Source: a virus. Taken from it: a stretch of 62,898 bases of DNA. Below the pieces are notes generated by a model. The model saw nothing but the letters and a program-made list of their open reading frames with translations. It searched no databases and was not told where the DNA came from. The position numbers and the translations under genes were made by a program. This document shows, piece after piece, positions 14,277 through 36,188 of the stretch. Position 1 is the first letter of the stretch. Every line of letters begins with the position of its first letter. The stretch lies in the IMG/VR virus record IMGVR_UViG_3300005098_000046, positions 1 to 62,898 of that record; one strand, given 5' to 3'.

Positions 14277-15858
14277 AATACGAATAACTGGCGGCCCAGA
14301 AGGGCCACAAGTCATCGAGGGAGAACCCGTCATGCCCAAAGGAACTGGCATTGTCGGCGAACGGCGCATGGTACAGCGACGGCGCGATATAGTGCCGCCG
14401 CACAGACCGATAGCAATCCCGCCGCGCCGCGCTGCGAAGCCGACAACGGCTGCAATCTTTCCGTCGGCGTCGGCGGAGATGGCGGTGCGCTGTGCGAAAG
14501 CATTGCCGAGTGATGTGCTGAAGGTTGTTATCATGACGAGGAGTTTCGCAGCCGACCAGTTGAGCGCTATCCCGAACGTGAAAATTGTCGGCATGACCAG
14601 CGAGCCTTTCGTCTACAGCCGCGCGTTAAATGCCGGTGCGCGGATTGCCGCTGCCTTCGCCAATACATTTGTCTTTATGAACGACGATGTGTTTTTCAGA
14701 AGCGCCGAAGACTTTCACACACTGGCTGAAGCTGCCTGGCAACACCCTGGCGCCGGCATCGTCGCGCCGCTTGCCACGTATTCTGGCTTCAGCGCGCAGC
14801 GCGCCAACAAACCGCGCGGAGAAGGCTTGCGCGAAGTATCCTTCGTGCCGGGCTTCGCAATGGCCATGCGCAAGGAAGTGTATCTGGAGATTGGCGGCTG
14901 GGATGAGCGCTATCGCGGCTACGGCGTAGATGATGACGATATTTGTTACGCTGTGCGGAAGAAGCGCTACAAGGTTTTCCTGCTGGAGAGCGTTGTCGTA
15001 GACCATATTGGCCACGCCACGTTCCCACGCGACAGGAGCTTTGTGCAACGCGAGCTGGCGAAGTGGTCAACGGTCTTTGAAGAGAAGTGGGGCATTGACC
15101 GGCTGGCGGCGCGCGAAGCGAAGCTGCGCGCAGACGTATCTGTGCTGATGCCGTGCTACAACGCAGAGCAATATGTCGGGCTTGCCCTCGGCAGCATTGC
15201 ACAAGCAGAGTACGACGGCGACTTGGAGATTGTCTGCGTGGACGACGGCAGCACCGACAAGACGTGGCACTTGCTGGAGATAGCGAAGCAGGGCTTCGGC
15301 GACCAGATGCTAACAGTCGGCAAGTGGCACACTGGCGTCTCACAGACGCGCAACTGGTGTGTTATGCGGTCTACCGGTGACATTCTTATCTGGCTGGACG
15401 CCGACGACATCATGCCGCCGAAGCGCATAGTAGAAAGCATTGAAGCGTTGCAAGACGCCGATATGGTCTACGGACAGCTTGAAAACTTCACCGACGACGT
15501 TCGCAAGCGCACGCCGGTAAAGGTGGAGCCGCCTTCGACGAAGCGACTGGGCGACGGCAACGATTTCCGCATCGGCACCGCTGCAGCGCGCCGCGATGTG
15601 TTTGAAGAGCACGGCTGCTGGTTCGATGAGGACCTGCCGGCGCTGGAGGATTGGGACTGGATGTTGACGTGCATCGAGAAAGGCTTGCGCGTCAAGGCGT
15701 CGGACAAATGCTGGCTGTACCGGCGGGTTGTGCCTGGCTCGTTGTACAAGCGGTCGCCGGTCAGCGAGCTTCGCAAGCGCATCCATCAAAAGCACCAAGC
15801 GCTGTTTGCCTATATTGTAGGCTTTCAGCGCTTGCCGGAGCGTGACATAACGCAATGA
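14266..15858 (+). CDS. Glycosyltransferase with two GT2 (GT-A) domains
   Basis: The protein has 530 residues with three parts. Residues about 1-40 form a short tag with G-T-G-I-V-G-E-R-R that recurs in the protein at 18598. Residues about 85-280 form a GT2-like domain: the F-M-N-D-D-V segment is the metal-binding DxD region. Residues about 285-500 form a second GT2 domain with V-L-M-P-C-Y-N, V-D-D-G-S-T-D and W-L-D-A-D-D, the standard donor- and metal-binding motifs. Such enzymes move a sugar from a nucleotide sugar to an acceptor. ATG 14266 overlaps the previous gene by 11 bases. Acceptor is unknown. Confidence 0.85.
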   Translation: MAAKIRITGGPEGPQVIEGEPVMPKGTGIVGERRMVQRRRDIVPPHRPIAIPPRRAAKPTTAAIFPSASAEMAVRCAKALPSDVLKVVIMTRSFAADQLSAIPNVKIVGMTSEPFVYSRALNAGARIAAAFANTFVFMNDDVFFRSAEDFHTLAEAAWQHPGAGIVAPLATYSGFSAQRANKPRGEGLREVSFVPGFAMAMRKEVYLEIGGWDERYRGYGVDDDDICYAVRKKRYKVFLLESVVVDHIGHATFPRDRSFVQRELAKWSTVFEEKWGIDRLAAREAKLRADVSVLMPCYNAEQYVGLALGSIAQAEYDGDLEIVCVDDGSTDKTWHLLEIAKQGFGDQMLTVGKWHTGVSQTRNWCVMRSTGDILIWLDADDIMPPKRIVESIEALQDADMVYGQLENFTDDVRKRTPVKVEPPSTKRLGDGNDFRIGTAAARRDVFEEHGCWFDEDLPALEDWDWMLTCIEKGLRVKASDKCWLYRRVVPGSLYKRSPVSELRKRIHQKHQALFAYIVGFQRLPERDITQ

Positions 15859-24236: not shown

Positions 24237-25592
24237 ATGAAAGTTGGCAAACAGCATATCCTGCAAGGCGACAGCGCGAAGCTGCTGCGCAGCGTGCCCA
24301 AAGATTCGGTATCGGCAATTGTGACCGACCCGCCGTATGGCTGGTCGTTCATGGGCAAAAACTGGGATGCGACGCTCCCGCCGCGAGAGGTTTTCGAGCA
24401 ATGCCTGCGCGTACTGAAGCCAGGCGCGCGGGCATTTATCTTTTGCGGCAACAGAGGCGACACACACTGGCGTATGCTCCAAATGCTGGAAGAAGTCGGC
24501 TTTGACGTGGGGTATCAAGAACTTTGCTGGATATACGCAAGCGGCTTCCCAAAGGGCATCAATTTGAGCAAGCAGCTTGACGGGCTCGTCGGCGCCGAAA
24601 GAGAAGTCGTCGCAGTGCGCCGCAAGCTGTCGTCGTTTACCAGTGACGGCAAAAGTCACTACGGGGTCGGCTATCGCGATTACGACGAAGACATCATCGA
24701 AATATCAAAACCGGCGACAGCCGCTGCTAAGCAGTGGGATGGATGGTATACCGGCCGGCAAGCGCTGAAGCCGGCACACGAGTACATCATTCAAGCCGTG
24801 AAGCCGTTCCGCGGAACGGCGGCGGAAAATGTCTTGCGCCACGGCGCCGGTGCACTGAACATCGACGGCACGCGCTTGCCGACAGATAACCCTACGGGCT
24901 GGCAGGGCGAAACTGGCTTCCGCTACACACACAACTTCAGCAAATATGGCGGCATGAAGCGCAAGAAGAAAGCCCCGCCGCAGAAAAGGAAGTATCACAA
25001 GTTCCAACCGGGCAGCGGGGGCTGGATGGTATCAGCACGCAAGGATGTTGACAGCAGCCATACCGACGAGACATACGTGCCACACGAAAACGGCCGCTTC
25101 CCAGCTACTGTGCTGGCGCAAGGTTGCCCGGACTTCATGCACTTTTTCGACGTAGACGGTTGGGCGGAGCAGCAAAAGTTGCCAAAGGACTGGGCAGATT
25201 TAGCACAGATAGGGATGCTGTATTGCCCGAAGCCTGTGCGCGGCGAGAAGGACGCTGGCTGCGAAGACTTGCCGAAGAAACGCCCCATAACCGACTGGGG
25301 CAAAGACGGCTATGCGCGGCCGAAAAGCGAAGACGAGATGGTCGCGCCGTGTGGCAATTTCCACCCGACAGTGAAGCCGGTGCGGATATGCGCATTCTTG
25401 ATAAAGCTGGGGTGCCCGGAAGACGGCATAGTACTGGACCCGTTTGCAGGCAGCGGCACGACGGCCGTCGCTGCTGAATTACTGGGCATAGCTGGCGTCC
25501 ACATTGAACTGTCGCCCGAATACTATGCCATCATGAAAGCGCGCGTGCGCTGGGCAGAAAAACAACGCGGGGAAGGCCAGAGGAAAGAATAG
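24237..25592 (+). CDS. DNA methyltransferase, beta class (N6-adenine or N4-cytosine)
   Basis: The protein has 451 residues. The catalytic motif IV D-P-P-Y is at residues 31-34 and the S-adenosylmethionine-binding motif I D-P-F-A-G-S-G-T-T is near the C terminus, which is the beta-class order. DPPY favours adenine N6 methylation, though N4-cytosine cannot be excluded. The middle 250 residues include a Lys-rich part and would hold target recognition. No partner endonuclease is seen, so it is probably an orphan enzyme protecting phage DNA from host restriction. It is the last plus gene before the leftward array. Confidence 0.9.
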   Translation: MKVGKQHILQGDSAKLLRSVPKDSVSAIVTDPPYGWSFMGKNWDATLPPREVFEQCLRVLKPGARAFIFCGNRGDTHWRMLQMLEEVGFDVGYQELCWIYASGFPKGINLSKQLDGLVGAEREVVAVRRKLSSFTSDGKSHYGVGYRDYDEDIIEISKPATAAAKQWDGWYTGRQALKPAHEYIIQAVKPFRGTAAENVLRHGAGALNIDGTRLPTDNPTGWQGETGFRYTHNFSKYGGMKRKKKAPPQKRKYHKFQPGSGGWMVSARKDVDSSHTDETYVPHENGRFPATVLAQGCPDFMHFFDVDGWAEQQKLPKDWADLAQIGMLYCPKPVRGEKDAGCEDLPKKRPITDWGKDGYARPKSEDEMVAPCGNFHPTVKPVRICAFLIKLGCPEDGIVLDPFAGSGTTAVAAELLGIAGVHIELSPEYYAIMKARVRWAEKQRGEGQRKE

Positions 25593-25623
25593 GGCGCCCA
25601 GCGCTTAACAGCACCGGGCACCC
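25592..25623. terminator. Hairpin between convergent genes (candidate bidirectional terminator)
   Basis: Arms GGGCGCCCAGCGC (25592-25604) and GCACCGGGCACCC (25611-25623) can pair over 13 positions in minus-strand RNA using G-U pairs, with three mismatches in plus RNA. It lies just past the methyltransferase stop and about 30 bases past the last minus-array stop. The minus RNA continues as TATTCTTTCC, only moderately U-rich, so intrinsic termination is plausible but not certain. Confidence 0.5.
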
Positions 25624-25626
25624 TTT

Positions 25627-25647
25627 CCGATGAGGAGGGTCGGCATG
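25627..25647 (+). promoter_or_regulatory. Orphan copy of the array ribosome-binding motif, plus strand
   Basis: CCGATGAGGAGGGTC (25627-25641) is the leader motif of the minus array but reads on the plus strand and is followed by ATG at 25645. The reading frame behind it is antisense to the real minus gene and looks like a shadow. It may be a remnant of an inverted cassette or mark the end of the array. Confidence 0.6.
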
Positions 25648-25653
25648 AGAACC

Positions 25654-25884
25654 TTAGTCAGTATACCTCACAAGATGCTTGCCTGTCCACAACCACGACT
25701 TGCCAGTAATCTCCATATTGCCATCTCCGTTCTCTTTGCATTCGGCGACGACGTATTCATGCCGGGCTGCGCCGGTATCGCGCAGCCAGCGAACAGCGTC
25801 GCGCCGACTGCTTGCCACATACACTGGCTCGATGTCGTCTTCAAGCCATTTGTGGTGTGGGATGATAAACAGCAAGCGTTTCAC
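25654..25884 (-). CDS. Small hypothetical protein, last gene of the leftward array
   Basis: The protein has 76 residues starting K-R-L-L-F-I-I-P-H-H, with a mixed alpha/beta look. The start is GTG at 25884 because the array motif GAGGAGGG lies 6-7 bases upstream; a longer frame upstream would run through the hairpin leader. It ends about 60 bases from the converging methyltransferase gene. No family is recognised. Confidence 0.6.
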   Translation of the reverse strand: MKRLLFIIPHHKWLEDDIEPVYVASSRRDAVRWLRDTGAARHEYVVAECKENGDGNMEITGKSWLWTGKHLVRYTD

Positions 25885-25980
25885 AGGAACCCCTCCTCGA
25901 AAGATTTGTGGGGACAAAGCCCCCAAGAATGCATTATGCAAGGCAATGCACTCTTGGGGGCCTTGCGGCCCCCTTGCGGG
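25885..25980 (-). promoter_or_regulatory. Array leader L1 (hairpin stack plus ribosome-binding motif)
   Basis: In minus-strand RNA order: hairpin A (25956-25973, GGGGGCC stem with GCAA tetraloop), long hairpin B (25920-25960), short hairpin C (25910-25923), then the GAGGAGGG motif (25891-25898). B shares its outer stem bases with both A and C, so they cannot all form together. Confidence 0.75.
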
Positions 25981-26571
25981 CTACTCGCCGCCAGCGTCGG
26001 GCGCTTCGGCGACTTTCCTTTCGCTTTCGCTTTCGTCATCGGAAGATGCGTCGGCGGCTTCTTCGCTGCTTGCCATCGCGCGTAGCGCTGCAGCCATTGC
26101 ATCCAAGCGCTCGTCGTATTTCATGTCAGCATAGTCAAGCGGATTGGGCACGTCGTCAGGCCAGAGCGCATGAACGTCAACGCCAGCAGCAGCTATGGTT
26201 TGAAGTTGCGGGATGGCGTTGCTGATTTCATAAGAGAAGCCGCCCACGATGGCGCTCCGTATACTCTTTGCCTTCTGCGCAAGCACTTCACGTGCGCGGT
26301 CTGGCAAAAGGGCGAGCACTGCTGCTTGCAATGGTACGGGCGCAATGTCGAACGATGTTAGCGCATCGACGATTTGGGCTAGCGTTGCGCTCCCAAAGCG
26401 CTGTATCATGCTTTCGCGCTCTTGAATGGGGACATCGAACCCTTCTTCTTGCATTGCATCGAAGAATACTTGCATCCAGACACGTGTCAGCTCCTGCAGT
26501 GCTTCACCGGCGCGTACAGCAAGCTGCAACTGAGCACCTTCTCGCATCTTGTACGGCAACCCGAAAGCCAT
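25981..26571 (-). CDS. Hypothetical protein with acidic C-terminal tail
   Basis: A 196-residue helical protein. The last 35 residues are an acidic Ser/Glu/Asp-rich tail, the first 160 are helical with Ala, Leu and Gln. It follows leader L2 and lies downstream of the clamp gene, so it may belong to replication. I do not recognise it. Composition (long helices plus an acidic tail) could fit a protein-binding adaptor, but this is a guess. Confidence 0.65.
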   Translation of the reverse strand: MAFGLPYKMREGAQLQLAVRAGEALQELTRVWMQVFFDAMQEEGFDVPIQERESMIQRFGSATLAQIVDALTSFDIAPVPLQAAVLALLPDRAREVLAQKAKSIRSAIVGGFSYEISNAIPQLQTIAAAGVDVHALWPDDVPNPLDYADMKYDERLDAMAAALRAMASSEEAADASSDDESESERKVAEAPDAGGE

Positions 26572-26672
26572 TTGGCTCCCTCCTCATCAAAGGATTTTGT
26601 GGAGCACAAAGCTCCCGTGGAAGCACAGCGCAAGCCATGCTTCCACGGGGGCCTTGCGGCCCCCGCAGCAGA
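26572..26672 (-). promoter_or_regulatory. Array leader L2
   Basis: Hairpin A at 26647-26664 (GGGGGCC stem, GCAA loop), hairpin B with 15-base arms at 26611-26625 and 26638-26652 (one mismatch), hairpin C at 26601-26615, then the motif at 26578-26585. A and B share GGGGGC, B and C share GCTCC: three mutually exclusive stems. Confidence 0.8.
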
Positions 26673-27974
26673 CTACTCCTTTTCTTTCAAGACCGGCGCG
26701 CGTGGCATAACAACCGCACACGGCACACCATCGCCAGGTTCCATGCCGTATGGCGTGAACACGACCGCAGTCTTTGGCGTGACGACATGTATGGTGACTT
26801 CTTCAGTATCGAACGCAGCGAATAGCCGAAGCGCATCGCGGACAAAGTACGGGTTCAAGCCCACCTTCATATCGTCGCCTTCAACGATGGTGGCCGGCAA
26901 TACATGCACAGCCATGTCTTCTTGTGGCGTCATTGCTTCCATCCGCTGCGTGCGCAGCTGTAGTGTGCCGGCATTGGCTTCAAGCCACATGATGTCATCA
27001 AGAACATCATGTTTCTCGCCCCCGGGGCGCGCCTTCGCTTGCCATGCTGCATCTACTACATGTCGATGTTCCGCAAGCACATCAAGCGCTTGCTCTGTTG
27101 ATATCGTCCAGTGCGCGGTGTGCGTATCTGGCGAAGGCACAACGCGGGGCCACCAATCCGGCAGCTTGTAATCGCCGTGCCGCGCACGCACCCACCAATT
27201 GCCAGCGACGACATCAACGACGTTCTTGCCATGATATAACGTCGCTTCGCGAGCGCCTGTTTTGTATGCGGCTTCCAGCACGCCAAGCGCCTCGCCGACG
27301 ATAAGTATCGGGGCGTCGCCCTTCACTTCAGCAGGGATTGCGGCCAGCCGATACGTGTCGGTGGCAATCGCCGTGCCGTCTCTCATGATGTGCAAGTAGC
27401 GGTACTTCTCATATCCAGTAGCATCGCTTTCGCCGAGAAATGCGCGCAACGCGCCAGCAATCAACAGCAACGCCGAAGCGTCGCGCGGGCCGCCAGGCTT
27501 AGGCATAGCAAGCGGTTTTTCGTCGTTGTCTGTAAGCTCGACTTCGTTGTCGTTGACGGCCAGCACGTTCGCACTTGCGCGGATGATGAGCGATTCGTCC
27601 TTCACAGATGCGCCCTTCAGCAGCGCACGAAGGACTTTGGCAGGCACAGCTATCGTGCCAGTCTCGCATACATCCGCAGCGAATGCAACGCGCGCCTGGA
27701 CAGACTCGCGCGGGCTATCGGCGTGCACAATGAAGCGCGTGGCCGTTGCGGAGAGAAAAACAGTCTTGGGTCTGAGCACCGACAGCAGCTTGCGGATGTA
27801 GAGCAGCGCTCGGCTGCTCGTGGCAATTGATAGAGACTTGCCGCTTGGCAGCTTGTCGCGTGGCGGCCGCGCCACGGCGAGTGCTTGCGGCTTCGGCTTT
27901 GGCCTCGGCCTCAGCTTTTGTAGCGGGGTCGCCGGTTTCGCGCCGATGTTGACACGGAGTCTAAACGGCTTCAT
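26673..27974 (-). CDS. dnaN: DNA polymerase III beta sliding clamp homologue
   Basis: The protein has 433 residues. After a basic, Pro/Lys/Arg-rich N-terminal extension of about 50 residues, the clamp fold runs through three domains. Diagnostic segments are A-T-D-T-Y-R-L-A in domain 2 and V-G-L-N-P-Y-F-V-R-D-A-L-R-L-F in domain 3 with T-P-Y-G-M in the last strand, close to DnaN. The extension makes it longer than the usual 370. It would encircle phage DNA and hold a polymerase. No phage polymerase is seen, so host Pol III is the likely partner. Leader L3 supplies its ribosome site; ATG at 27974. Confidence 0.85.
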   Translation of the reverse strand: MKPFRLRVNIGAKPATPLQKLRPRPKPKPQALAVARPPRDKLPSGKSLSIATSSRALLYIRKLLSVLRPKTVFLSATATRFIVHADSPRESVQARVAFAADVCETGTIAVPAKVLRALLKGASVKDESLIIRASANVLAVNDNEVELTDNDEKPLAMPKPGGPRDASALLLIAGALRAFLGESDATGYEKYRYLHIMRDGTAIATDTYRLAAIPAEVKGDAPILIVGEALGVLEAAYKTGAREATLYHGKNVVDVVAGNWWVRARHGDYKLPDWWPRVVPSPDTHTAHWTISTEQALDVLAEHRHVVDAAWQAKARPGGEKHDVLDDIMWLEANAGTLQLRTQRMEAMTPQEDMAVHVLPATIVEGDDMKVGLNPYFVRDALRLFAAFDTEEVTIHVVTPKTAVVFTPYGMEPGDGVPCAVVMPRAPVLKEKE

Positions 27975-28081
27975 AGCGAAACCCTCCTCATCGTGATTTC
28001 TGGGGACTATGCCCCAGCCAGGATGTTAACGGCAGTGTTAACGCCCTGGCCGGGGCACCAGCCCCGGCGGCCCGTCGCTTA
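27975..28081 (-). promoter_or_regulatory. Array leader L3 (before the clamp gene)
   Basis: Hairpin A at 28049-28068 (8-base GCCGGGGC stem), hairpin B from 28012 to 28054 with arms that include GTTAAC on both sides, hairpin C at 28000-28017, then GATGAGGAGGGTT. The sequence of every stem differs from L1 and L2 but the layout is the same. Confidence 0.75.
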
Positions 28082-28282
28082 TCACTGCGCACGTGGAAAT
28101 GCATAGAAGTACACGGGCTTGACGCCATGTGGCGTCTGCAGTGCGCGCACTTCCAGCAGCACGCCACGTGCTTGTTCGCGTGGCGAAGCGACGACAATCC
28201 ATGCTGTATTCGGTTTTGCGCGGCGCACTTTGTCTTCCAGCTGGCGCCGTCGCGTATCCACATCGGTATCCAGCATATCCAT
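28082..28282 (-). CDS. Small hypothetical protein
   Basis: A 66-residue protein beginning M-D-M-L-D-T-D-V-D, with an Arg/Lys helical part and a beta-strand end. ATG 28282 is chosen because GAGGAG lies 9 bases before it, inside the stop region of the upstream gene. There is no hairpin leader here: it is coupled to the zinc-ribbon gene upstream. Function unknown. Confidence 0.6.
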   Translation of the reverse strand: MDMLDTDVDTRRRQLEDKVRRAKPNTAWIVVASPREQARGVLLEVRALQTPHGVKPVYFYAFPRAQ

Positions 28283-28289
28283 GCTCGGC

Positions 28290-28523
28290 TCACTCCTCTG
28301 CGGCCGGCACCGCAGCGTGCAGGTCACGCCAGTCACATGCGCCGCACTGCGGGCATGGCTCCGGCTTGCCGTCCGGCTGGGCACTCGGCGCATCTTCATA
28401 GCCGCACTGATTACACCGGCACCAGTAAATGCCTCCAAGCACACCGTTCTTCTTGAAGTGCCGCCAACCGCGCGAAAAGCTGATGGGGCGGCCGCACCAA
28501 ACACATGTTCTAATCGCTGGCAT
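28290..28523 (-). CDS. Zinc-ribbon protein
   Basis: A 77-residue protein with three CxxC pairs (C-V-W-C, C-N-Q-C, C-P-Q-C), plus C-R and C-D: enough for two zinc sites. Such rubredoxin-like ribbons bind nucleic acids or partner proteins. ATG 28523 has GAGGGG upstream and overlaps the end of the previous gene. It has no hairpin leader of its own. Specific role unknown. Confidence 0.65.
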   Translation of the reverse strand: MPAIRTCVWCGRPISFSRGWRHFKKNGVLGGIYWCRCNQCGYEDAPSAQPDGKPEPCPQCGACDWRDLHAAVPAAEE

Positions 28524-28782
28524 TCTGCTCACGCCCCTCAATGCGCGTCAGGCATTCTTGGCAGACAGTCCAGCCAGGCTGGGCGGGGTCGCCGGGGTCG
28601 TGCGGAACCCAGCGGCCACAGATGCCGCAATGACTGCCGTGATATTTAGTGGCATACACAGCAGCGGCGTTCCAGCCTGCATAATAACCGGAGCGCCAGA
28701 TGTGCTTGTGTGCCACAGCCACAGCGATAGCAGCGCCAACGAACCCGGAGAAGATACCACCAAGCCACGGAATCGTATCCAT
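28510..28782 (-). CDS. Membrane-anchored zinc-ribbon protein
   Basis: The protein has 90 residues: one N-terminal hydrophobic helix (about residues 5-25, I-F-S-G-F-V-G-A-A-I) followed by a CxxC...CxxC domain (C-G-I-C and C-Q-E-C). A membrane-tethered zinc ribbon is an unusual layout. Leader L4 supplies the ribosome site 6 bases before ATG 28782, and the next two genes are read from the same leader. Confidence 0.65.
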   Translation of the reverse strand: MDTIPWLGGIFSGFVGAAIAVAVAHKHIWRSGYYAGWNAAAVYATKYHGSHCGICGRWVPHDPGDPAQPGWTVCQECLTRIEGREQNASD

Positions 28783-28919
28783 GCTGAACCCTCCTCATCG
28801 TTTTGTCGCCGAGCGCATCGCTCGGCCAGAAGGTCGCTGTGCATTGACGGCCTTCTGGCCGAGCGGCCGCCCGAAGGCGGCCACTCGGTTGCAGCATAGG
28901 ACCAGGGAGGCAAGGCAAA
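28783..28919 (-). promoter_or_regulatory. Array leader L4
   Basis: Hairpin A at 28865-28882 (GGCCGCC stem; the RNA loop is UUCG, the classic stable tetraloop), hairpin B with perfect 14-base arms at 28820-28833 and 28851-28864, hairpin C at 28809-28825, then the ribosome motif. B and C share GCTCGG. Confidence 0.8.
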
Positions 28920-29342
28920 CTACTTGGCCTTCTTCTGCTTGGCCTTCTCCGCGCCGTCGCCGTCGGCCTTCTTCGACTTAGCCTTCTTCGATTCGGCCTT
29001 CTTCTGCTTGGCCTTCGGCTCAGCCTTCTTGCCGTCATCAGTCTTCTTGGGCTTGGCTTCGGCTTCGGCCTTGGACTCATCCGGCGTTGCGGCAGCTTCT
29101 GGCTCCACGCCGATAATGCGCATAGCCTCTTCGGCGACAGCCGCGACAGCCGCTTGCACGTTCTTCTTCGGCAACTTGGGCGCCTTCTTCTTGCCAGCGG
29201 CCGCAGCGTACAGAAACACCAACAGGTCGAGCGCGGCTTCCACCAAGCCGGCTGCTATCGCAGCTTGATGGTCGGCCATCCCTTGGGCGAGCGCTTCCAA
29301 GTCTGCCAAGCGTTTCTCTTGCTCTTTCTCGGAGGCCATCAT
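28920..29342 (-). CDS. Lys/Ala-rich, histone H1-like tailed protein
   Basis: The protein has 140 residues. The N-terminal 80 form a helical region with an A-A-A-A segment; the last 60 residues are Lys/Ala/Glu repeats such as K-K-A-E-S-K-K-A-K, as in histone H1-like and bacterial HU-tail proteins. It may bind DNA or RNA through this tail. ATG at 29342, with a second ATG at 29339; leader L5 lies before it. No catalytic motif is visible. Confidence 0.65.
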   Translation of the reverse strand: MMASEKEQEKRLADLEALAQGMADHQAAIAAGLVEAALDLLVFLYAAAAGKKKAPKLPKKNVQAAVAAVAEEAMRIIGVEPEAAATPDESKAEAEAKPKKTDDGKKAEPKAKQKKAESKKAKSKKADGDGAEKAKQKKAK

Positions 29343-29455
29343 GGACCCTCCTCATCTAAAGTAGTGACGCTATCGCGTCGGGACGTTGTAGCGTCCCCAG
29401 AAGGGCAACAGAGCGCAACCGCTGCCCTTCTGGGGGCGCACAGGCCCCCACGGTT
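29343..29455 (-). promoter_or_regulatory. Array leader L5
   Basis: Hairpin A at 29432-29449 (GGGGGC stem), hairpin B with perfect 13-base arms at 29395-29407 and 29423-29435, hairpin C at 29380-29395, then GATGAGGAGGGTCC. Confidence 0.8.
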
Positions 29456-29629
29456 TTACTCTTCGGCGCTGGCTTCGGCATCATCGTCGCCGATTTCTTC
29501 GCCAAGCGCTTCAGCCAGCTCTTCTGGCGTTTCAATATAGAAGAACGCCATGTCTTGCCAGTACTCGTCTGGGCACCGGTAATCCGGCGGGTCGGGCGGG
29601 ATAATCCATTCTTCGCCGACCATAGCCAT
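29456..29629 (-). CDS. Very small acidic protein
   Basis: A 57-residue protein read M-A-M-V-G-E-E-W from an ATG at 29629 that overlaps the stop of the upstream gene as TGATG. It is acidic, with a Pro/Tyr/Trp-rich first half and an E-E-L-A-E-A-L-G-E-E tail. It ends at a TAA at 29456-29458. Overlap and clean frame support a real gene; function is unknown. Confidence 0.55.
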   Translation of the reverse strand: MAMVGEEWIIPPDPPDYRCPDEYWQDMAFFYIETPEELAEALGEEIGDDDAEASAEE

Positions 29630-30027
29630 CACTTCTTCCGCAAGCCGACGGTTATCTGCTCGCCGGGGTCAAGCGCCGCCGGCAGCCGCTTGCCAGCTTC
29701 AACAAGCTCGCGCACAAACGTGCGCAAACGCTGCCAGCTTGGCTTCGTTTCGATAAGGTCCAGCCGGCCGCGCTTTCGCAGCCACTTGACCACTTCGTCG
29801 GTCGTGTGGCCCTCAGCCAAGCGCGGATAGTACACCCGACTGATGTACACCGTGCCGACGCTTGTCTTGGCGCTCGTCAGCCCCTGCGCTTCAAGCGCTT
29901 CGCGGATTGCGGCAGCGACTTGCTCTTCTTCGGCAGCGACTGCAGACATTTGCGCCTTCAATTCGGCGCGCTGCTGCCGAAGTTCGGCGAGACGCTGTGC
30001 CAGTTCGTCAATCGTGGCTTCTGCCAT
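29629..30027 (-). CDS. Coiled-coil protein (possible Gam/Gp157-like)
   Basis: A 132-residue protein: residues 1-45 form a coiled coil (L-A-Q-R-L-A-E-L-R-Q), followed by a beta hairpin (T-V-Y-I-S-R-V-Y-Y-P) and a helical basic end. This layout recalls Mu Gam-like or Gp157-like proteins, which bind DNA ends, but identity is not clear. Leader L6 precedes it; the next gene overlaps by one base. It is in the middle of the array near other unknowns. Confidence 0.6.
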   Translation of the reverse strand: MAEATIDELAQRLAELRQQRAELKAQMSAVAAEEEQVAAAIREALEAQGLTSAKTSVGTVYISRVYYPRLAEGHTTDEVVKWLRKRGRLDLIETKPSWQRLRTFVRELVEAGKRLPAALDPGEQITVGLRKK

Positions 30028-30145
30028 TGTCAGACCCTCCTCATCGTGATTTTAGAGCGCATCCGCGCTCCCCAGAAGGCATCAGCGGCAGAAGGCCAAT
30101 GCCCTCTGGGGAACGCGGCCAGGGCCGCATTCCCAGAAGCGCGTG
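30028..30145 (-). promoter_or_regulatory. Array leader L6
   Basis: Hairpin A at 30115-30128 (GCGGCC/GGCCGC type), hairpin B 30068-30111 (stem CCCCAGA..TCTGGGG with bulge), hairpin C 30055-30070 (GAGCGC/GCGCTC), then GATGAGGAGGGTC. Confidence 0.75.
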
Positions 30146-30442
30146 CTACTGTTCTTGCTCTTCGCATTCAGCAACGCCGGTGGCGTACCCGTAGACGAAC
30201 GACAGAGCTTCTTCGACGCTGCCCCACACGCGGTGAAACGGCTTGCCGTCTTTGACCAACCAGACGCGCTTGATGCCGACTTCGCGGTAATCCCAATTTA
30301 CCCAAAACTCCAAGCCCAGCCGCGCAGCATAGAACGCTTCGTCGGCGGTCACAAGCAGAAACGCCTTGCCACTATCGGGCAACCGCCGTTCAAACACGAA
30401 GGGTACAAACTGCGCATCGAGCACATCCTTGTCGGTAATCAT
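30146..30442 (-). CDS. Hypothetical small protein
   Basis: A 98-residue protein with mixed alpha/beta character and several aromatic residues (E-F-W-V-N-W-D-Y), ending E-E-Q-E-Q. ATG 30442 follows the leader L7 motif. There is no recognisable domain. Confidence 0.6.
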   Translation of the reverse strand: MITDKDVLDAQFVPFVFERRLPDSGKAFLLVTADEAFYAARLGLEFWVNWDYREVGIKRVWLVKDGKPFHRVWGSVEEALSFVYGYATGVAECEEQEQ

Positions 30443-30579
30443 GCCGAACCCTCCTCATCGTTAGGCTCGGAGCGCATCCGCGCTCCCCAGAAGGCACTCG
30501 TGGATGAATGCCCTCTGGGGAGCACGGCGGAGTCGGGGCCAGCTCCGCCGCGCTCCTTTGAGCCGGGTGACACAGGCTG
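30443..30579 (-). promoter_or_regulatory. Array leader L7
   Basis: Hairpin A at 30526-30549 (GGCGGAG stem), hairpin B 30482-30523 (GCTCCCCAGA/TCTGGGGAGC outer arms), hairpin C 30469-30486 (7-base GGAGCGC stem), then the ribosome motif. B and C share GCTCC. Confidence 0.8.
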
Positions 30580-30810
30580 CTACCACTCTTTGCTGCCGAT
30601 TACGGTAGCTATCACGTTGATGATAACACGCTCGCCGTTCGGCAACTCAGCGCGCGTTTGCGCTTGCCAACCGACGCTACCGGTCTTGAACTCGCGCGCC
30701 TTGCCAAGCGGCACGGTGACGCGCGTCTCGCCGATGCTTACGTCAGCGTGGCCGATAGCATCAAGCTCGGCAATTCGCTCTTCGCGTGTCTTTTCCTTCT
30801 TGCCAGCCAT
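30580..30810 (-). CDS. Hypothetical small protein
   Basis: A 76-residue protein with a Lys/Glu-rich N-terminal helix and beta-strand C terminus (V-I-I-N-V-I-A-T-V-I). ATG 30810 follows leader L8. Unknown function. Confidence 0.6.
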   Translation of the reverse strand: MAGKKEKTREERIAELDAIGHADVSIGETRVTVPLGKAREFKTGSVGWQAQTRAELPNGERVIINVIATVIGSKEW

Positions 30811-30895
30811 TTCGGACCCTCCTCTACGGAGATTTGCGAGTCATAGCGACCCCCACTGGGTACCCGGCCTTTCGCCAGATACCCAGGTGGGGTAG
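30811..30895 (-). promoter_or_regulatory. Array leader L8 (short form)
   Basis: Only the long hairpin B is present: CCCCACTGGGTA (30851-30862) pairs with TACCCAGGTGGGG (30880-30892), and outer CATAGC/GCTATG (30842-30847/30895-30900) extends it into the stop codon of the upstream gene. There is no separate hairpin A. L15 has the same layout. Confidence 0.7.
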
Positions 30896-31207
30896 CTATG
30901 CAATCGCCGCCTTCGCGGCTTGCTCGGCACGCTTCTTCTCCAAGCATTCCTTGCAAATCTGCCCGACGCGCGGCCAGTCGCGCACTGCAGGATTGTTGCA
31001 GTGCTTGTAGCCGCAAATGCGGCGATGCTCGCCACGGTAATATCCAGCCAGCCAACCGCCGCACGCTCTGCAGCGCCCGGACATGTTGGCGCACTGCTCA
31101 AGCCCACAGTCCAGGCACCGCGCGCGTTCGTGGCACCGTTCTCCAGTGCCGTTGACGCGGCCGCACTCAGGGCAACAATTCTTGCGATACCACTCTTCGC
31201 GTGTCAT
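30896..31207 (-). CDS. Cysteine-rich zinc-binding protein
   Basis: The protein has 103 residues with C-P-E-C, C-L-D-C, C-R-A-C, C-G-Y-K-H-C and C-K-E-C elements: at least four possible zinc sites. This is far denser than a single zinc ribbon and may make an RNA- or protein-binding scaffold. Leader L9 precedes ATG 31207. No family recognised. Confidence 0.65.
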   Translation of the reverse strand: MTREEWYRKNCCPECGRVNGTGERCHERARCLDCGLEQCANMSGRCRACGGWLAGYYRGEHRRICGYKHCNNPAVRDWPRVGQICKECLEKKRAEQAAKAAIA

Positions 31208-31342
31208 CGTGGACCCTCCTCATCGTGATTTCTGGGGCACAGCCCCAGCCAGAACCTTGCAACGGTGCAGGGTTCTGGCCGGGGCGCCGGCGGCGGGGGG
31301 GCAACCGCCGACACCCCAGCTGGGAGGAGGGTAGGCAGTAAG
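31208..31342 (-). promoter_or_regulatory. Array leader L9
   Basis: Hairpin A is longer (31291-31310, CGGCGG/CCGCCG), hairpin B has perfect 9-base arms 31248-31256 and 31271-31279 (GCCAGAACC), hairpin C 31232-31248 (CTGGGG/CCCCAG). On the plus strand near 31323-31331 there is an extra GGAGGAGGGT in reverse orientation. Confidence 0.75.
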
Positions 31343-31663
31343 CTACTTCAGCGCTTCGCGGAAGGCACTCGGCCCACGCGCAAGCGTGCCGTCCGGCTCG
31401 ATGCGGAACGTCGCCACGCGGCGGCACGCGCCGCCCATCTTATCTGGCGTGCGCTCAACAAAGACGAAAACGCTGCCGGTCACGGCGCCATCGGGCTGCT
31501 GATGACCAATCTCGGCGAAGTAAGCCTCGCCGTCTGGCGCTATCCAGCTATCAGCAACCGGCTTGCCGTCAAGCAAGTCTGGCTGATAGCCAGGCAGCTT
31601 GGGGATGCGCGCCATGATTTTAGTGAACGTGTCAAGCGCCGCCTTCGTTGCGGAGTATCCCAT
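31343..31663 (-). CDS. Hypothetical protein
   Basis: A 106-residue protein, mixed alpha/beta, with a Lys/Ala-rich start and strand-rich middle (S-V-F-V-F-V-E-R-T). ATG 31663 lies 8 bases after GAGGAGGG of leader L10. The longer upstream frame is not used. Unknown. Confidence 0.6.
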   Translation of the reverse strand: MGYSATKAALDTFTKIMARIPKLPGYQPDLLDGKPVADSWIAPDGEAYFAEIGHQQPDGAVTGSVFVFVERTPDKMGGACRRVATFRIEPDGTLARGPSAFREALK

Positions 31664-31781
31664 TTGTTTCGCCCTCCTCATCGGTGAATGCCAAGGCACA
31701 AGCCTTGGCCGGAGCCTCGCCGCTTGACGAAGCTCCGGCCAGGGCGCCGGCTGTGCGCCAGCACCTTGGCGTTCGCGTGGC
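31664..31781 (-). promoter_or_regulatory. Array leader L10
   Basis: Hairpin C is a perfect 8-base GCCAAGGC stem (31690-31709), hairpin B has perfect 9-base arms 31707-31715 and 31732-31740 (GGCCGGAGC), hairpin A is near 31743-31759 (GGCGC/GCGCC). C and B share GGC. Confidence 0.75.
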
Positions 31782-32225
31782 TTACATACCGAGATGCTTG
31801 CGATAGATAGCCACCAGGTCCACTTCGGACCATTCGTATTCTTCGGCAGCATCGCGCAATTCCTTCAGCGCTTCTTCTTTGCTGTCGTAGATGGCCTCTT
31901 CGTCCATGATTTTCGGGTCAAAACGCAGCAAGCTGCCAGGCCACTCCACGATGGACCATACGCCGCCGCCCATGTCGTACAAGAAAGCATAGCCATAGTG
32001 CGAATAGAACACGGGGCCAGCGGCCGCGCATTCCACCAGCATCGTCCAGTCGAAAAGCTCATAGTCTTCGACCAGCTCTGCGGGCAGCGGCGCACTGGCC
32101 TTCAGCACGTTGCCACGCATCCGCTCTGAGTCGGCGACTTCAGCATCAATGCCGTGCTTGCGGCACGCATGAAGCAAGCCGCTAGGAATCGGCCGTGCTG
32201 CACTTACGTAAATGCGCTTCTCCAT
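31782..32225 (-). CDS. Hypothetical protein
   Basis: A 147-residue protein with M-E-K-R-I-Y-V-S start and acidic, Glu/Asp-rich C-terminal helix (E-E-A-L-K-E-L-R-D). The middle holds hydrophobic aromatic segments (Y-S-H-Y-G-Y-A-F-L-Y). ATG 32225 follows GAGGAGGG of leader L11. No known family. Confidence 0.6.
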   Translation of the reverse strand: MEKRIYVSAARPIPSGLLHACRKHGIDAEVADSERMRGNVLKASAPLPAELVEDYELFDWTMLVECAAAGPVFYSHYGYAFLYDMGGGVWSIVEWPGSLLRFDPKIMDEEAIYDSKEEALKELRDAAEEYEWSEVDLVAIYRKHLGM

Positions 32226-32330
32226 CTTGGGACCCTCCTCGCTTCGGTTTGGAGCGTATTGCACGCCCAGCTTGCCTGCCGCACATCACGACAAGCAAGC
32301 TGGGGGCGCAAGCGCCCCCAGGGGCCTCTG
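32226..32330 (-). promoter_or_regulatory. Array leader L11
   Basis: Hairpin A at 32302-32319 (GGGGGCG/CGCCCCC with CUUG loop in RNA), hairpin B with perfect 10-base arms 32266-32275 and 32295-32304 (CCCAGCTTGC), hairpin C weak (GCG stem). Ribosome motif GAGGAGGGTCC follows. Confidence 0.75.
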
Positions 32331-32573
32331 CTACATCCGGCGAAGATAGAACATCAGCAGCTGGCTTGCGGCCGCCTTGGCGACTTGCTCGCTCTTATCG
32401 CCGGGCCGCCCGCGCACAACGATGCGATACGTGGGGAAGAACCAGCCCAAGTCCAGCTTCTGCACCCAGATGCCGCCAAAGAAAAGCTCATCGCCGGTGT
32501 GCATGGCCCGCAGGCACTTGGCCAACGCATCCACGTCCACAAAGTCTTTGACCTTCGGCTTGAATGTCTGCAT
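32331..32573 (-). CDS. Hypothetical small protein
   Basis: An 80-residue protein: M-Q-T-F-K-P-K-V start, central Asp/Leu helix and a hydrophobic strand run (G-W-F-F-P-T-Y-R-I-V-V). ATG 32573 is chosen by the leader L12 motif 7 bases upstream. Unknown function. Confidence 0.6.
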   Translation of the reverse strand: MQTFKPKVKDFVDVDALAKCLRAMHTGDELFFGGIWVQKLDLGWFFPTYRIVVRGRPGDKSEQVAKAAASQLLMFYLRRM

Positions 32574-32673
32574 CGCTTGACCCTCCTCACCGGTTTTGGG
32601 GTTCATAAGAACCCCACCAAGCCACAGGTATCCGCCCATGCCTTGGTGGGGGCCTTATGGCCCCCTCGCTTCA
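32574..32673 (-). promoter_or_regulatory. Array leader L12
   Basis: Hairpin C 32598-32615 (perfect GGGGTTC/GAACCCC), hairpin B arms 32612-32621 and 32642-32651 (CCCCACCAAG), hairpin A 32648-32665 (GGGGGCC/GGCCCCC). B shares CCCC with C and GGGG with A, the clearest case of overlapping stems. Confidence 0.8.
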
Positions 32674-33219
32674 CTACGTGCGGTCTGCCAGGCCGAACGC
32701 AGCCTTGACAAAGCCTTCGTAGTCGCCGCGCTTCAACGCTTCGCGCGCACGTGCGCGCTCTTGCTCAATCTCGCGGCGCGCTTGCTCGTGTTCTTCCAGC
32801 GCTTCCTTGCACATCGCCAGAAAGCGCTCTGTGGCCGCCTTGCGCGAAGCATACAGCCGAACCCACATCTTGCTGCGGCCGCGCACGTGAAACACGCGGC
32901 CAGGCTTGGCATTCTTCGCTGTGGGTGTAGGTTCATACTCCAGCGCATACGGGTCACGCTCGCGCTCACCAAACTCCATCACAGCAAGCTGGTGGCCGAC
33001 CAGATACAGCACGCGGCCAGCGACTCTCATGCAGAGAATCGCCGGCGCATGGCCGGTATTGACACAGCCGGGCGCAGGCTCCGGCCCAGCCAGGCCGGTG
33101 CCAGGCTCAAGGCTGGCCGCTTCTACTTGCTGCCGGTACTTGGCAAGCTGCTCTTCCACGCTGAGCGGCACACGCGCGCGATATTCGCGGCGGCGCTTGC
33201 GGCGCTTTTGCCGTTTCAT
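32674..33219 (-). CDS. Basic helical protein, unknown
   Basis: A 181-residue protein with an extremely basic start (Lys/Arg in 10 of the first 16 residues), a Pro/Gly-rich linker, a strand-rich middle (R-V-L-Y-L-V-G-H-Q-L-A) and a long Glu/Arg/Ala helix near the end. The basic N terminus suggests nucleic acid binding. Leader L13 precedes ATG 33219. Not recognised. Confidence 0.6.
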   Translation of the reverse strand: MKRQKRRKRRREYRARVPLSVEEQLAKYRQQVEAASLEPGTGLAGPEPAPGCVNTGHAPAILCMRVAGRVLYLVGHQLAVMEFGERERDPYALEYEPTPTAKNAKPGRVFHVRGRSKMWVRLYASRKAATERFLAMCKEALEEHEQARREIEQERARAREALKRGDYEGFVKAAFGLADRT

Positions 33220-33324
33220 CGCTTGACCCTCCTCATCGTTTTTGGCGCACCAAGTGCGCCCAGTCTACGCAGACACAGAACGCATCTGCGTAGACTGGGA
33301 GCACACAGCGCTCCCAGAACGCGC
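33220..33324 (-). promoter_or_regulatory. Array leader L13
   Basis: Hairpin B is perfect over 15 bases: 33259-33273 pairs with 33285-33299 (CCCAGTCTACGCAGA). Hairpin C is 33244-33260 (GGCGCA/TGCGCC), A is 33297-33315 (GGGAGC). It is the strongest stem in the array. Confidence 0.8.
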
Positions 33325-33756
33325 CTAATCACGGGGCCACGGCTCATCCATCCACGCAAGCTCCACAGCCTTGACCAGCTTGCGCCGGCACACCCACTTC
33401 TTGTAGTCGGCAGGTCTGCGCATCACAGTCAGCAAGTACTTCAAGCGCGAGTCACGCGAGCGGCGCGGCGGCTTGACCACAAACAGCACCAACATACCGC
33501 GCAACGGCGCCAGGTAGTAGCCTTCGGTGGTGCCAGTGTGCCAATTGAACAATTCGGCAGCCGCATCAGCAATCGTGTGATGCAATTGCATGGGGCCTTT
33601 GCTGTACCCACATTTGGCACAAGCGCCAGCGCCTTCTTCATCAGCCAAGTACTGCGCGCCGGTATCCGGCTCGCATACCCAGTGCGTGGACCATGTATGG
33701 CCACACCGTGGGCATAGGAACTCAACCTTCTCGCCTTGGACATGCCAAGATAGCAT
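33325..33756 (-). CDS. Zinc-ribbon protein
   Basis: A 143-residue protein with one zinc ribbon built from C-P-R-C-G-H and, 30 residues later, C-A-K-C-G-Y. The second half is basic and helical with hydrophobic strands (G-M-L-V-L-F-V-V-K). ATG 33756 follows leader L14. A nucleic-acid or host-protein binder is plausible. Confidence 0.65.
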   Translation of the reverse strand: MLSWHVQGEKVEFLCPRCGHTWSTHWVCEPDTGAQYLADEEGAGACAKCGYSKGPMQLHHTIADAAAELFNWHTGTTEGYYLAPLRGMLVLFVVKPPRRSRDSRLKYLLTVMRRPADYKKWVCRRKLVKAVELAWMDEPWPRD

Positions 33757-33857
33757 TGTTGGACCCTCCTCACCGGACATTTGGGCTCCCAAGAACCCCA
33801 TCAGCCTGCCAGTGAAAACCGACAAGCTGATGGGGGCCTTGCGGCCCCTTCCGCCAG
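33757..33857 (-). promoter_or_regulatory. Array leader L14
   Basis: Hairpin B arms 33796-33805 and 33826-33835 (CCCCATCAGC), hairpin A 33832-33848 (GGGGGCC/GGCCCC, GCAA loop), hairpin C reduced to three pairs. Motif GGTGAGGAGGGTCC follows. Confidence 0.75.
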
Positions 33858-34268
33858 CTACACAATCGCATTCGGCAATATCTCGCGCTTCAGCGCTTCA
33901 ATCGCCATCTCCTTGTTGGTGTAACCGCCCCATTCAATGCCACGGCCAGCGACGCTGGCGAAGCGCTCAATCTCTTCCTTGTCCATCACGTAGAACGTCC
34001 ACAGCCACGTGCCATCGACATGCACGTTCACAATCACATAGAACGAGCTGCGGGGACGCACCGCACGCTGTACTTCGCGCATCACTTCGCCGCGCGTCGT
34101 CAGCACTGGTGGCGCGTCGTGCATGTGGAGACAGCATGGGCATCGCAAAACATCGTCGGGGCTATTATCGCCGACTTCGAGAATGTACTTGTCATCCTCG
34201 AAGTACAGCCCCACCGACCAAGGGCGCCCACACGCCTTGCATAAAAATACAATCCGTGCAACCTTCAT
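33858..34268 (-). CDS. Zinc-ribbon protein with basic segment
   Basis: A 136-residue protein with C-K-A-C and C-P-C-C pairs about 30 residues apart, giving one zinc ribbon, followed by a beta-rich domain (F-Y-V-I-V-N-V-H-V-D-G-T-W). It ends with a helix. ATG 34268 follows leader L15. Function unknown. Confidence 0.65.
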   Translation of the reverse strand: MKVARIVFLCKACGRPWSVGLYFEDDKYILEVGDNSPDDVLRCPCCLHMHDAPPVLTTRGEVMREVQRAVRPRSSFYVIVNVHVDGTWLWTFYVMDKEEIERFASVAGRGIEWGGYTNKEMAIEALKREILPNAIV

Positions 34269-34354
34269 GTCAGACCCTCCTCACCGGATATTTGGGCCAT
34301 AGCGGCCCCCGCTGGGCGCTCAGGGCATCAGCCCCAAACGCCCAGATGGGGCGG
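34269..34354 (-). promoter_or_regulatory. Array leader L15 (short form)
   Basis: Hairpin C 34294-34308 (GGGCC/GGCCC), hairpin B built on CTGGGCG/CGCCCAG with flanking CCCC/GGGG. Hairpin A is missing, as in L8, and the outer stem reaches the upstream stop codon. Confidence 0.7.
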
Positions 34355-34669
34355 CTATACCACCATGTCGCTCAGCAACGCACGAGCGATGATAACAGCA
34401 GCCTTCAGCGACGCCTCGGCGCGCTTGCGCGGGTCATCACCCTTGCGGATGATGAAGCGCTCCGTAGTGTTGCAACCGCTCTCGCACTCCACCACATAGC
34501 AGTCGGGCTGCTGCTCGACAACGATGTCGCTGCTTCGCGTGCGCGCGAAGCAGCGCTCGCCGTCAATCGTGGTAACCAACGCCGCCAGCCGGCCGATAGC
34601 TTTCTCCAGCTCGCGGGTCGCCGCTTCAAAAAGCTCGTCGTGCTCGCCATCTTTCCACACGGCACTCAT
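34355..34669 (-). CDS. Hypothetical protein
   Basis: A 104-residue protein with an N-terminal helix, a Cys pair (E-C-E-S-G-C) and a C-terminal helix (A-A-V-I-I-A-R-A-L-L). The array motif in L16 lies 7-8 bases before ATG 34669, which decides the start. Unknown. Confidence 0.6.
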   Translation of the reverse strand: MSAVWKDGEHDELFEAATRELEKAIGRLAALVTTIDGERCFARTRSSDIVVEQQPDCYVVECESGCNTTERFIIRKGDDPRKRAEASLKAAVIIARALLSDMVV

Positions 34670-34772
34670 TTTGTTGACCCTCCTCACCGGATGTTTGAGT
34701 TCACAAGAACCCCACCAAGGCGCATCGCTCGTCTACGCCTTGGTGGGGGCCTTGCGGCCCCCCATTAAGAAC
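34670..34772 (-). promoter_or_regulatory. Array leader L16
   Basis: Hairpin B is perfect over 13 bases (34710-34722 with 34736-34748, CCCCACCAAGGCG), hairpin A 34745-34762 (GGGGGCC stem, GCAA loop) shares its G run, hairpin C is GTTC/GAAC. Confidence 0.8.
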
Positions 34773-35165
34773 CTACAGGAGAGCGGCGTGCGCCATAGCT
34801 TCGCGCACTATGTTCTCGACCTTGCTGCGCAGCACGATGCGGCGCTTCCGCTCGCCGGGCGTCACGGTGCTCGGCGCCGGCCGGCCGCCGACGCCGCCGC
34901 GGTCAACGCGCAGGTCTGCGCACTGCTTGACCAGCAACACCGCCGCTTGCCATGCAGCCCACATCGCATCGCCATCGCCATTGAAGCGCGTCAATTCATC
35001 GGCATCTTCAACCACGAAAATGCTTTCATCTTCGCGCTTCACAATGAACGGGCCGACCTTGGCATACGTGCCAACCGGCATGGCAAGCAACCGTTGCTCC
35101 GTGCAAGCAATCGCAGCATCGATGACCGCCCACAGGTTCTCGATGCCAACAGCAGCATACTTCAT
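34773..35165 (-). CDS. Hypothetical protein
   Basis: A 130-residue protein with an N-terminal Ala-rich helical part, a strand-rich middle (P-F-I-V-K-R-E-D-E-S-I-F-V-V), and a Pro/Gly/Arg-rich linker before a final helix. ATG 35165 follows the leader L17 motif. Unknown function. Confidence 0.6.
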   Translation of the reverse strand: MKYAAVGIENLWAVIDAAIACTEQRLLAMPVGTYAKVGPFIVKREDESIFVVEDADELTRFNGDGDAMWAAWQAAVLLVKQCADLRVDRGGVGGRPAPSTVTPGERKRRIVLRSKVENIVREAMAHAALL

Positions 35166-35275
35166 CGTGGACCCTCCTCGCAGGAATTAGGCAGGTTATC
35201 CTGCCCCACCATGCAACCCGTCACAGGCTGCATGGTGGGGCAGGGCAGCATTCGCTGCCCTTGCCCATCGCCGCA
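35166..35275 (-). promoter_or_regulatory. Array leader L17
   Basis: Hairpin B is perfect over 12 bases (35204-35215 with 35229-35240, CCCCACCATGCA), hairpin A 35243-35260 (GGGCAGC/GCTGCCC), hairpin C 35190-35205 (GGCAGG/CCTGCC). Motif GAGGAGGGTCC follows. Confidence 0.8.
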
Positions 35276-35584
35276 CTACGACGCACGCTCGAACCATTCA
35301 ATGCGCATCTTGCCAGGCAAGCTATCCACTTCGCCGGCCAAGAACGCGCAGCCATAAGCGCCAGCCGCCTTCACCGCAGCGTCAAGCGCGGCCAATTCTT
35401 CGCCGCTGGGCTTGACAGCCGCAATGTAATCGTGAATGGCCTCGTCATAGGGGCGCTGGTCTGGCTCAATCACAAAGTCGAATCCCCCGCTGATGGGATT
35501 CCATTCCCACCAGCCTTCCAGCACAGCAGCCTTCAGGACGAAACCCTTCGGCGGCCGCTTGCTATGCTTAAGCAATGTAGTCAT
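35276..35584 (-). CDS. Hypothetical protein, first gene of the leftward array
   Basis: A 102-residue protein with M-T-T-L-L-K-H start and hydrophobic Trp-rich part (G-W-W-E-W-N). ATG 35584 is preferred over GTG 35593 because GAGGAG overlaps the latter. Closest to the leftward promoter near 36160-36188, so it may be the most strongly or earliest expressed gene of the array. Unknown function. Confidence 0.6.
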   Translation of the reverse strand: MTTLLKHSKRPPKGFVLKAAVLEGWWEWNPISGGFDFVIEPDQRPYDEAIHDYIAAVKPSGEELAALDAAVKAAGAYGCAFLAGEVDSLPGKMRIEWFERAS

Positions 35585-35687
35585 GGCGCTCACTCCTCAT
35601 CGGTATTGGGAAGCCTTGTGGCCTCCCTTGACGGTCATGGCATTCAGCCAGGGCCGTCAAGGGAGACCACCTTGCGGTGGCCTTCCC
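35585..35687 (-). promoter_or_regulatory. Array leader L18
   Basis: Hairpin B is perfect over 11 bases (TCCCTTGACGG, ending at 35634, with 35654-35664), hairpin A 35667-35680 (CCACC/GGTGG, GCAA loop), hairpin C near 35608-35627. Ribosome motif is GATGAGGAGTGA, the most diverged. Confidence 0.75.
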
Positions 35688-35706
35688 CCGATGAGGAGGA
35701 GGGTCC
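35688..35706 (+). promoter_or_regulatory. Orphan copy of the array motif, plus strand (right border)
   Basis: CCGATGAGGAGGAGGGTCC reads on the plus strand just outside the first array gene, facing away from the array. A TTG at 35708 opens a frame of 56 codons with no recognisable content, so I do not call it a gene. Together with the copy at 25627 it brackets the array with outward or inverted copies. Confidence 0.55.
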
Positions 35707-36159: not shown

Positions 36160-36188
36160 ATGCTAATCGACGCGCGCGAATATGTCAA
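36160..36188 (-). promoter_or_regulatory. Leftward sigma70-like promoter for the array
   Basis: On the minus strand TTGACA (36183-36188) and TAGCAT (36160-36165) are 17 bases apart: a perfect -35 and a 4 of 6 -10. It points toward the array, whose first gene begins about 575 bases away. Confidence 0.5.

Follow-up and report, generated by a model that had tools for sequence, protein, structure and literature searches.

The sequence studied is a 62.9-kb uncultured virus record (IMG/VR IMGVR_UViG_3300005098_000046), which was analysed over its whole length, positions 1-62898 (the window). The phage encodes a terminase, a portal, a major head protein, a tape measure, an SNF2-type helicase, a primase and RusA. 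On its minus strand, a leftward gene block running from 35.7 to 25.65 kb comprises 18 genes, each preceded by an RNA leader, and three closely packed leaderless open reading frames (ORFs). The leaders (U1 to U18, each ahead of one gene, g1 to g18) lie at 25885-35689 and fill stop-to-start gaps of 85-137 nt; U1, the first leader, has no same-strand gene upstream. A previous reading made from the letters alone (the sequence-only reading) had described 18 minus-strand leaders in gaps of this size, each holding a hairpin set and a near-identical ribosome motif, and had attributed their design to selection on RNA shape. Number, place and strand were borne out, and the sequence analyses described below confirm that the leaders are a real, repeated RNA element under selection on the mRNA strand, of which no earlier description turned up in the sources searched. 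Four points go beyond the sequence-only reading, namely a complementarity between the first and third hairpins, a subtype formed by U4 and U11, three junctions without a leader, and inverted motif copies that flank the block.

The hairpin set resolves into three hairpins (H1, H2 and H3) with fixed geometry. From 5′ to 3′, the order in each leader is stop codon, H1, the long hairpin H2, H3, a spacer of 6-9 nt, a GATGAGGAGGGTC-like Shine-Dalgarno (SD) motif and the start codon, which is ATG (GTG for g18). In most units H1, which is 16-41 nt long and frequently has a GCAA loop, begins 5-13 nt past the stop codon, and H3, which is 15-20 nt long, usually ends 6-9 nt from the SD. The H2 core, from where H1 ends to where H3 starts, measured 28-34 nt (mean 31.7, sd 1.7) in 16/16 H1-bearing leaders. 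The SD stands 4-6 nt from the start codon in nearly all leaders, the exceptions being U14 (1 nt) and U18 (8 nt). U4 and U11 are without H1, and their stop codon TAG pairs with a downstream GCTA in the outer stem. The claim of a shared ribosome motif also held: GAGGAG(GGTC), with the consensus GATGAGGAGGGTC, was present in every leader, and at three or fewer mismatches it occurred 29 times in the window when 12.2 ± 3.5 occurrences were expected (0/100 shuffles reached 29). All matches with 0-2 mismatches were confined to 25.6-35.7 kb.

The individual leaders, all on the minus strand, are listed here with the ranges of H1, H2, H3 and the SD in that order. The array opens with U1 (35585-35689; H1 35659-35689, H2 core 35628-35658, H3 35608-35627, SD 35589-35601), behind which lies g1 (35584-35276), and U2 (35166-35275; 35238-35266, 35206-35237, 35190-35205, 35170-35182), behind which lies g2 (35165-34773). 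These are followed by U3 (34670-34772; 34745-34762 with the GNRA loop GCAA, 34713-34744, 34697-34712, 34676-34688), the H1-less U4 (34269-34354; H2 34309-34354, H3 34294-34308, SD 34273-34285), U5 (33757-33857; 33833-33848, 33799-33832, 33783-33798, 33762-33774), U6 (33220-33324; 33295-33317, 33261-33294, 33244-33260, 33225-33237), U7 (32574-32673; 32648-32665, 32616-32647, 32598-32615, 32579-32591), U8 (32226-32330; 32300-32321, 32269-32299, 32251-32268, 32231-32243) and U9 (31664-31781; 31739-31769, 31710-31738, 31690-31709, 31670-31682), ahead of g3 to g9, respectively. Farther along the block are U10 (31208-31342; 31279-31319, 31249-31278, 31232-31248, 31212-31224), U11, which shares the U4 subtype (30811-30895; H2 30853-30895, H3 30838-30852, SD 30815-30827), U12 (30443-30579; 30519-30556, 30487-30518, 30469-30486, 30447-30459) and U13 (30028-30145; 30105-30137, 30071-30104, 30055-30070, 30033-30045), leading g10 to g13, the last of which encodes a DUF7307/Mu Gam-like protein. 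U14 (29343-29455; 29431-29450, 29398-29430, 29380-29397, 29344-29356) carries an extra hairpin downstream and precedes g14, and U15 (28783-28919; 28859-28888, 28826-28858, 28809-28825, 28787-28799) precedes g15. U16 (27975-28081; 28049-28068, 28018-28048, 28000-28017, 27980-27992) precedes a sliding-clamp-like gene, g16 (26673-27974; PHROG 947, E 3e-16), which thus lies within the leader operon. The array ends with U17 (26572-26672; 26645-26666, 26617-26644, 26601-26616, 26576-26588) ahead of g17 and U18 (25885-25980; 25956-25973, 25925-25955, 25910-25924, SD within 25889-25905) ahead of g18. The closely packed downstream junctions that have no leader belong to the minus-strand ORFs 29632-29456, 28528-28290 and ~28282-28082.

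Evidence for a selected RNA structure came from folding stability, covariation, detection of held-out leaders and strand asymmetry, which together sustain the earlier claim of selection on RNA shape. All 18 leaders folded more stably than 200/200 dinucleotide shuffles (z from -4.0 to -7.4, mean -6.0), and the majority of the most stable 90-nt segments of the genome come from leaders. H1 and H3 were each far more stable than their shuffles (mean z -4.7 and -4.1, respectively). In an alignment of eight leaders, both sides of H2 varied at 11/11 modelled pairs while 97.7% of cells were paired, and the whole structure was 88.1% paired, compared with 37-52% when the columns were slid by 1-3 positions. 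A covariance model (R1) built from these eight leaders, the check that had been proposed, recovered the remaining 10 at E ≤ 8e-5 and had no match at E ≤ 1 elsewhere in the window, outside 25.6-35.7 kb. The 10 held-out leaders were 90.9% paired, compared with 40-51% when slid, in an alignment that was fitted by the model and hence leans towards it. Because every sequence derives from one genome, the covariation is among copies and not among orthologues. Moreover, the minus-strand (mRNA) fold was more stable than its complement in 16/18 leaders, with an excess of -5.9 kcal/mol after shuffle correction for composition (p = 3.8e-5), and G-U pairs numbered 67 on the mRNA strand versus 44 on the opposite strand. 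Since the mRNA strand outfolds its complement, the selected object is the mRNA and not a DNA palindrome, and this asymmetry led us to set aside readings of the leaders as DNA-level cruciforms or protein sites.

In 16/16 H1-bearing units, H2 continues outward by 2-14 pairs, using the H1 3′ arm and the H3 5′ arm, and these two arms are complementary to each other. The leaders therefore contain four mutually complementary blocks, and two folds are thus available: fold A, which consists of three abutting hairpins, and fold B, a single hairpin of 22-30 bp (mean 27) with small interruptions. The predicted energies of the two differed by a mean of 0.0 kcal/mol (sd 7.2, spread -15 to +8); B was the more stable fold in 13 units, and A in the other 5. 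Native stability of fold B was reached in ~1% of cases when an unrelated H1 was swapped in and in 7% when H3 was swapped, and in 8/1600 stem-permuted controls that kept both hairpins; an independent arm-swap permutation gave 0/20,000. Because swapped and permuted stems so rarely matched the native value, the H1:H3 complementarity is specific. The SD lies outside both folds.

Strong GC hairpins behind nearly every gene could be transcription attenuators, or terminators without U tails that are read through by phage antitermination. We consider this highly improbable, given that the region contained 11 terminator-like sites compared with 9.8 expected in shuffles, that the sole matches in leaders were weak ones in U8 and U17 (coding strand), and that termination at one gap after another would leave the distal sliding clamp gene silent. 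A role as ordinary U-tailed intrinsic terminators, which the sequence-only reading had named as a finding that would undo its proposal, was rejected because U tails are missing from all leaders except, weakly, U8 and U17. The one clear U-tailed hairpin, an intrinsic terminator-like structure at 25591-25624 on the minus strand, follows the last gene. At the other end of the block, the best sigma-70-like match (TTGACA-17-TAGCAT, 36160-36188, minus strand), which is a consensus match only, lies upstream of the array and may mark where a polycistronic transcript starts.

The reading that we tentatively favour is that the leaders are intercistronic mRNA insulator or processing sites, at which an RNase III-type enzyme of the host probably cuts, and that the fresh ends are capped by H1 and H3. 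The block would form one leftward, probably polycistronic operon, the transcript of which would fold from just past each stop codon to just before the next SD, between nearly all gene pairs that are not packed end to end, and the leaders would divide the long message into cistrons that are handled independently of one another. The sequence-only reading had likewise proposed that the leaders may co-ordinate translation or transcript processing of early genes. The long hairpin of fold B, which at 22-30 bp provides the approximately two helical turns of double-stranded RNA expected of an RNase III site, would be the substrate of an RNase III-like host nuclease specific for double strands. Once the message is cut, H1 would re-form and cap the 3′ end of the upstream mRNA, and H3 would likewise cap the 5′ end of the downstream mRNA, beside its SD; this would account for the mutual complementarity of their arms. 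Cleavage, stabilisation and an effect on translation are what we infer from the layout of the leaders, and cleavage with re-formed caps would be the simplest use that we found for the four complementary blocks. Several points weigh against this proposal. The element was found in no other genome searched, so that its covariation is confined to the copies of one genome. The gap between folds A and B varies by unit from -15 to +8 kcal/mol, which leaves a switch balanced in each unit unsupported. Modelled openness of the SD was not improved by the leader (0.35 with it versus 0.42 without). No RNase III encoded by the phage was detectable, and the host would therefore have to supply the enzyme.

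The same placement could also serve a passive translational and transcript insulator that works without cleavage, in which a fully paired spacer would occupy the stretch from the terminating to the initiating ribosome and block read-through, scanning reinitiation, Rho loading and nuclease entry. H1 begins shortly past the stop codon in most units, H3 ends just before the SD, and leaders occupy the non-coupled gaps and not the three tightly packed junctions, all of which would suit such an insulator. Insulation alone is the weaker reading because the SD is predicted to be no more open with the leader and because the H1:H3 complementarity, which it leaves unexplained, would be unnecessary; end-to-end packing would also be a cheaper way of avoiding exposed gaps. 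We therefore regard passive insulation as possible, with the chances clearly against it.

On the minus strand, the operon is flanked by two copies of the SD motif in inverted orientation. An exact reverse complement (GACCCTCCTCATC, 25629-25641) lies in the 3′ untranslated region (UTR), 12 nt past the g18 stop codon and just ahead of the operon-end terminator, and a near copy (GACCCTCCTCCTCATC, 35690-35705), which can pair with the g1 SD, adjoins the leader array at its 5′ end. These copies are a possible source of antisense RNA or possible relics of inverted leaders. The plus-strand ORF at 25645-26085, which lies behind the inverted motif, does not look like a coding sequence. Duplexes of the inverted motif with the 18 starts were predicted at -18 to -32 kcal/mol, compared with a mean of -8.5 for duplexes at other genes and -11 to -14 kcal/mol for 16S pairing, and these values suggest that one RNA could exert antisense control on all starts. 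The 13-nt SD motif might accordingly be kept in order that a complementary RNA, such as a 3′ UTR/terminator fragment (25591-25641), shuts the operon down. Conservation of the motif beyond the SD core and the lone inverted start-associated sequences (SAS) of several cluster K phages are consistent with such feedback. However, any RNA rich in CCUCC pairs with strong SDs, the two inverted copies may themselves be relics of inverted leaders, and the hairpins are left unexplained, and we judge antisense feedback unlikely. If true in full, the leaders would be a new RNA family and a new way of organising gene expression: each cistron would be bounded by a two-state element of four mutually complementary blocks, which one fold would offer for processing and the other would turn into two protective end-caps, with a shared SD motif silenced at once by the operon's own 3′-UTR-derived RNA; this complete picture seems to us improbable.

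Elsewhere in the window, a family 2 glycosyltransferase gene (14119-15858, plus strand) sits amid the tail-region genes, and an N6/N4 DNA methyltransferase gene (24237-25592, plus strand) is directly convergent with the leader operon. GATC occurred 6 times (both strands counted) in the window when ~461 occurrences were expected, an extreme avoidance, and CCGCGG, GATATC, ACGCGT and CCCGGG were likewise depleted. The avoidance of GATC suggests a GATC-cutting restriction system in the host, and the methyltransferase might be related to this avoidance.

Searches for relatives of the leaders gave no Rfam match at gathering score in the window and no tRNA. The sequence-only reading had looked for support to matches in related phages, and the scans made brought up no close relative of the phage in GenBank phages or IMG/VR. 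Scans of viral contigs with single proteins, SD patterns and an H1+SD pattern returned no relatives, only coding or chance matches, and the sole match in a scan of genome contigs was one distant primase. Neither megablast nor blastn against phages gave a relevant match, three weak ones falling in a Lys-rich coding stretch of g14. Matches of the R1 model at other loci (E ~0.002-1) were set aside; the strongest were inspected, and they are without the three-hairpin layout.

Within the array, DNA-similar groups of leaders include U3/U7, U12/U13, U10/U16, U4/U11 and U17/U18, and no convincing paralogy was found among the 18 downstream proteins. Because related leaders precede unrelated genes, the leaders have spread or been homogenised independently of the genes; cassette recombination through them is thereby suggested only indirectly. 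The leaders might then be mobile REPIN-like DNA or boundaries of recombination cassettes, spread by transposition or gene exchange, and the inverted motif copies at both operon ends would fit such an origin. REPINs, which consist of two inverted palindromes around a palindromic spacer and show long-hairpin and clover folds with compensatory changes (PMC3116915), are indeed the closest structural analogue. However, REPINs have highly conserved REP ends, whereas the H1 and H3 sequences differ between units; the selection seen here is specific to the RNA strand, and the leaders always stand ahead of a start codon, in a single orientation and at a fixed distance from the SD. REPINs are, moreover, tied to RAYT, and no Y1/RAYT transposase was found in the phage; a host might supply one. 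We hold a mobile or cassette-boundary nature to be very unlikely.

In position, the leaders resemble the SAS and extended SAS (ESAS) of cluster K mycobacteriophages, the comparison that the sequence-only reading had drawn together with a difference in sequence, and both parts of it stood. In both systems a 13-nt motif that overlaps the SD recurs in front of many non-structural genes unrelated to one another, and a further element lies upstream of it (PMC3203893); similar start-associated motifs occur in Microbacterium cluster EF (PMC7302621). The cluster K consensus at start codons is GGGATAGGAGCCC, whereas the motif here is GATGAGGAGGGTC. ESAS repeats, 17-bp inverted repeats, hold one shared sequence in which changes do not support RNA pairing (PMC3203893), whereas the stems here differ and covary, keeping their pairing in three overlapping hairpins. 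ESAS also contain SigA-like putative promoters (PMC11373665); no promoter fits between the leader hairpins and the SD. In Anaya, the ESAS share GTTGACATGCATACAG without consistent strand bias, and the R1 model had no match in Anaya 30-60.8 kb. The varying, covarying stems, the other motif and this negative search rule out that the leaders are cluster K ESAS. A likeness lies in the lone inverted motif copy, since Anaya, Adephagia, Angelica and CrimD each have one inverted SAS to which no role is assigned. That of Anaya (record position ~59870) falls in an intergenic gap of 385 nt close to where the rightward operon ends; a terminator-like hairpin region starts ~190 nt upstream of it. The antisense question may apply to this copy too.

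In phage T7, the hairpins that RNase III processes lie between early genes, in the stop-to-start gaps of a polycistronic early message, and the leaders here have a like position. RNase III cutting and maturation of T7 and lambda messages are established and offer a precedent. The differences are that the present phage has 18 copies, a double-fold design and a fixed SD, and that cleavage of its leaders is putative. PeSL cassettes of T4-like phages, as outlined in a citing paper (PMC4503421), comprise an early promoter and a terminator-like stem-loop, and on that outline both systems place repeated intergenic regulatory units ahead of small, shuffled genes. The leaders differ from this outline in showing no promoter excess and no U tail: promoter-like sites, of a type that the host may or may not use, were not found at each leader, and the 6-9 nt between H3 and SD count against an early promoter in each unit.

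Since 2011, conserved start-associated repeats have been reported from the early regions of phages, with no function assigned to them. Unlike in cluster K, an RNA shape is here selected and copied before unrelated genes, 18 times in one genome, and the question is therefore testable with one synthetic operon. If the leaders are self-capping processing sites, they would amount to a modular insulator of natural origin, useful to both phage biology and synthetic biology. The leaders belong to a kind that is already known, that of repeated start-associated leaders and intercistronic processing sites; what is new is the two-fold structure with covarying stems.

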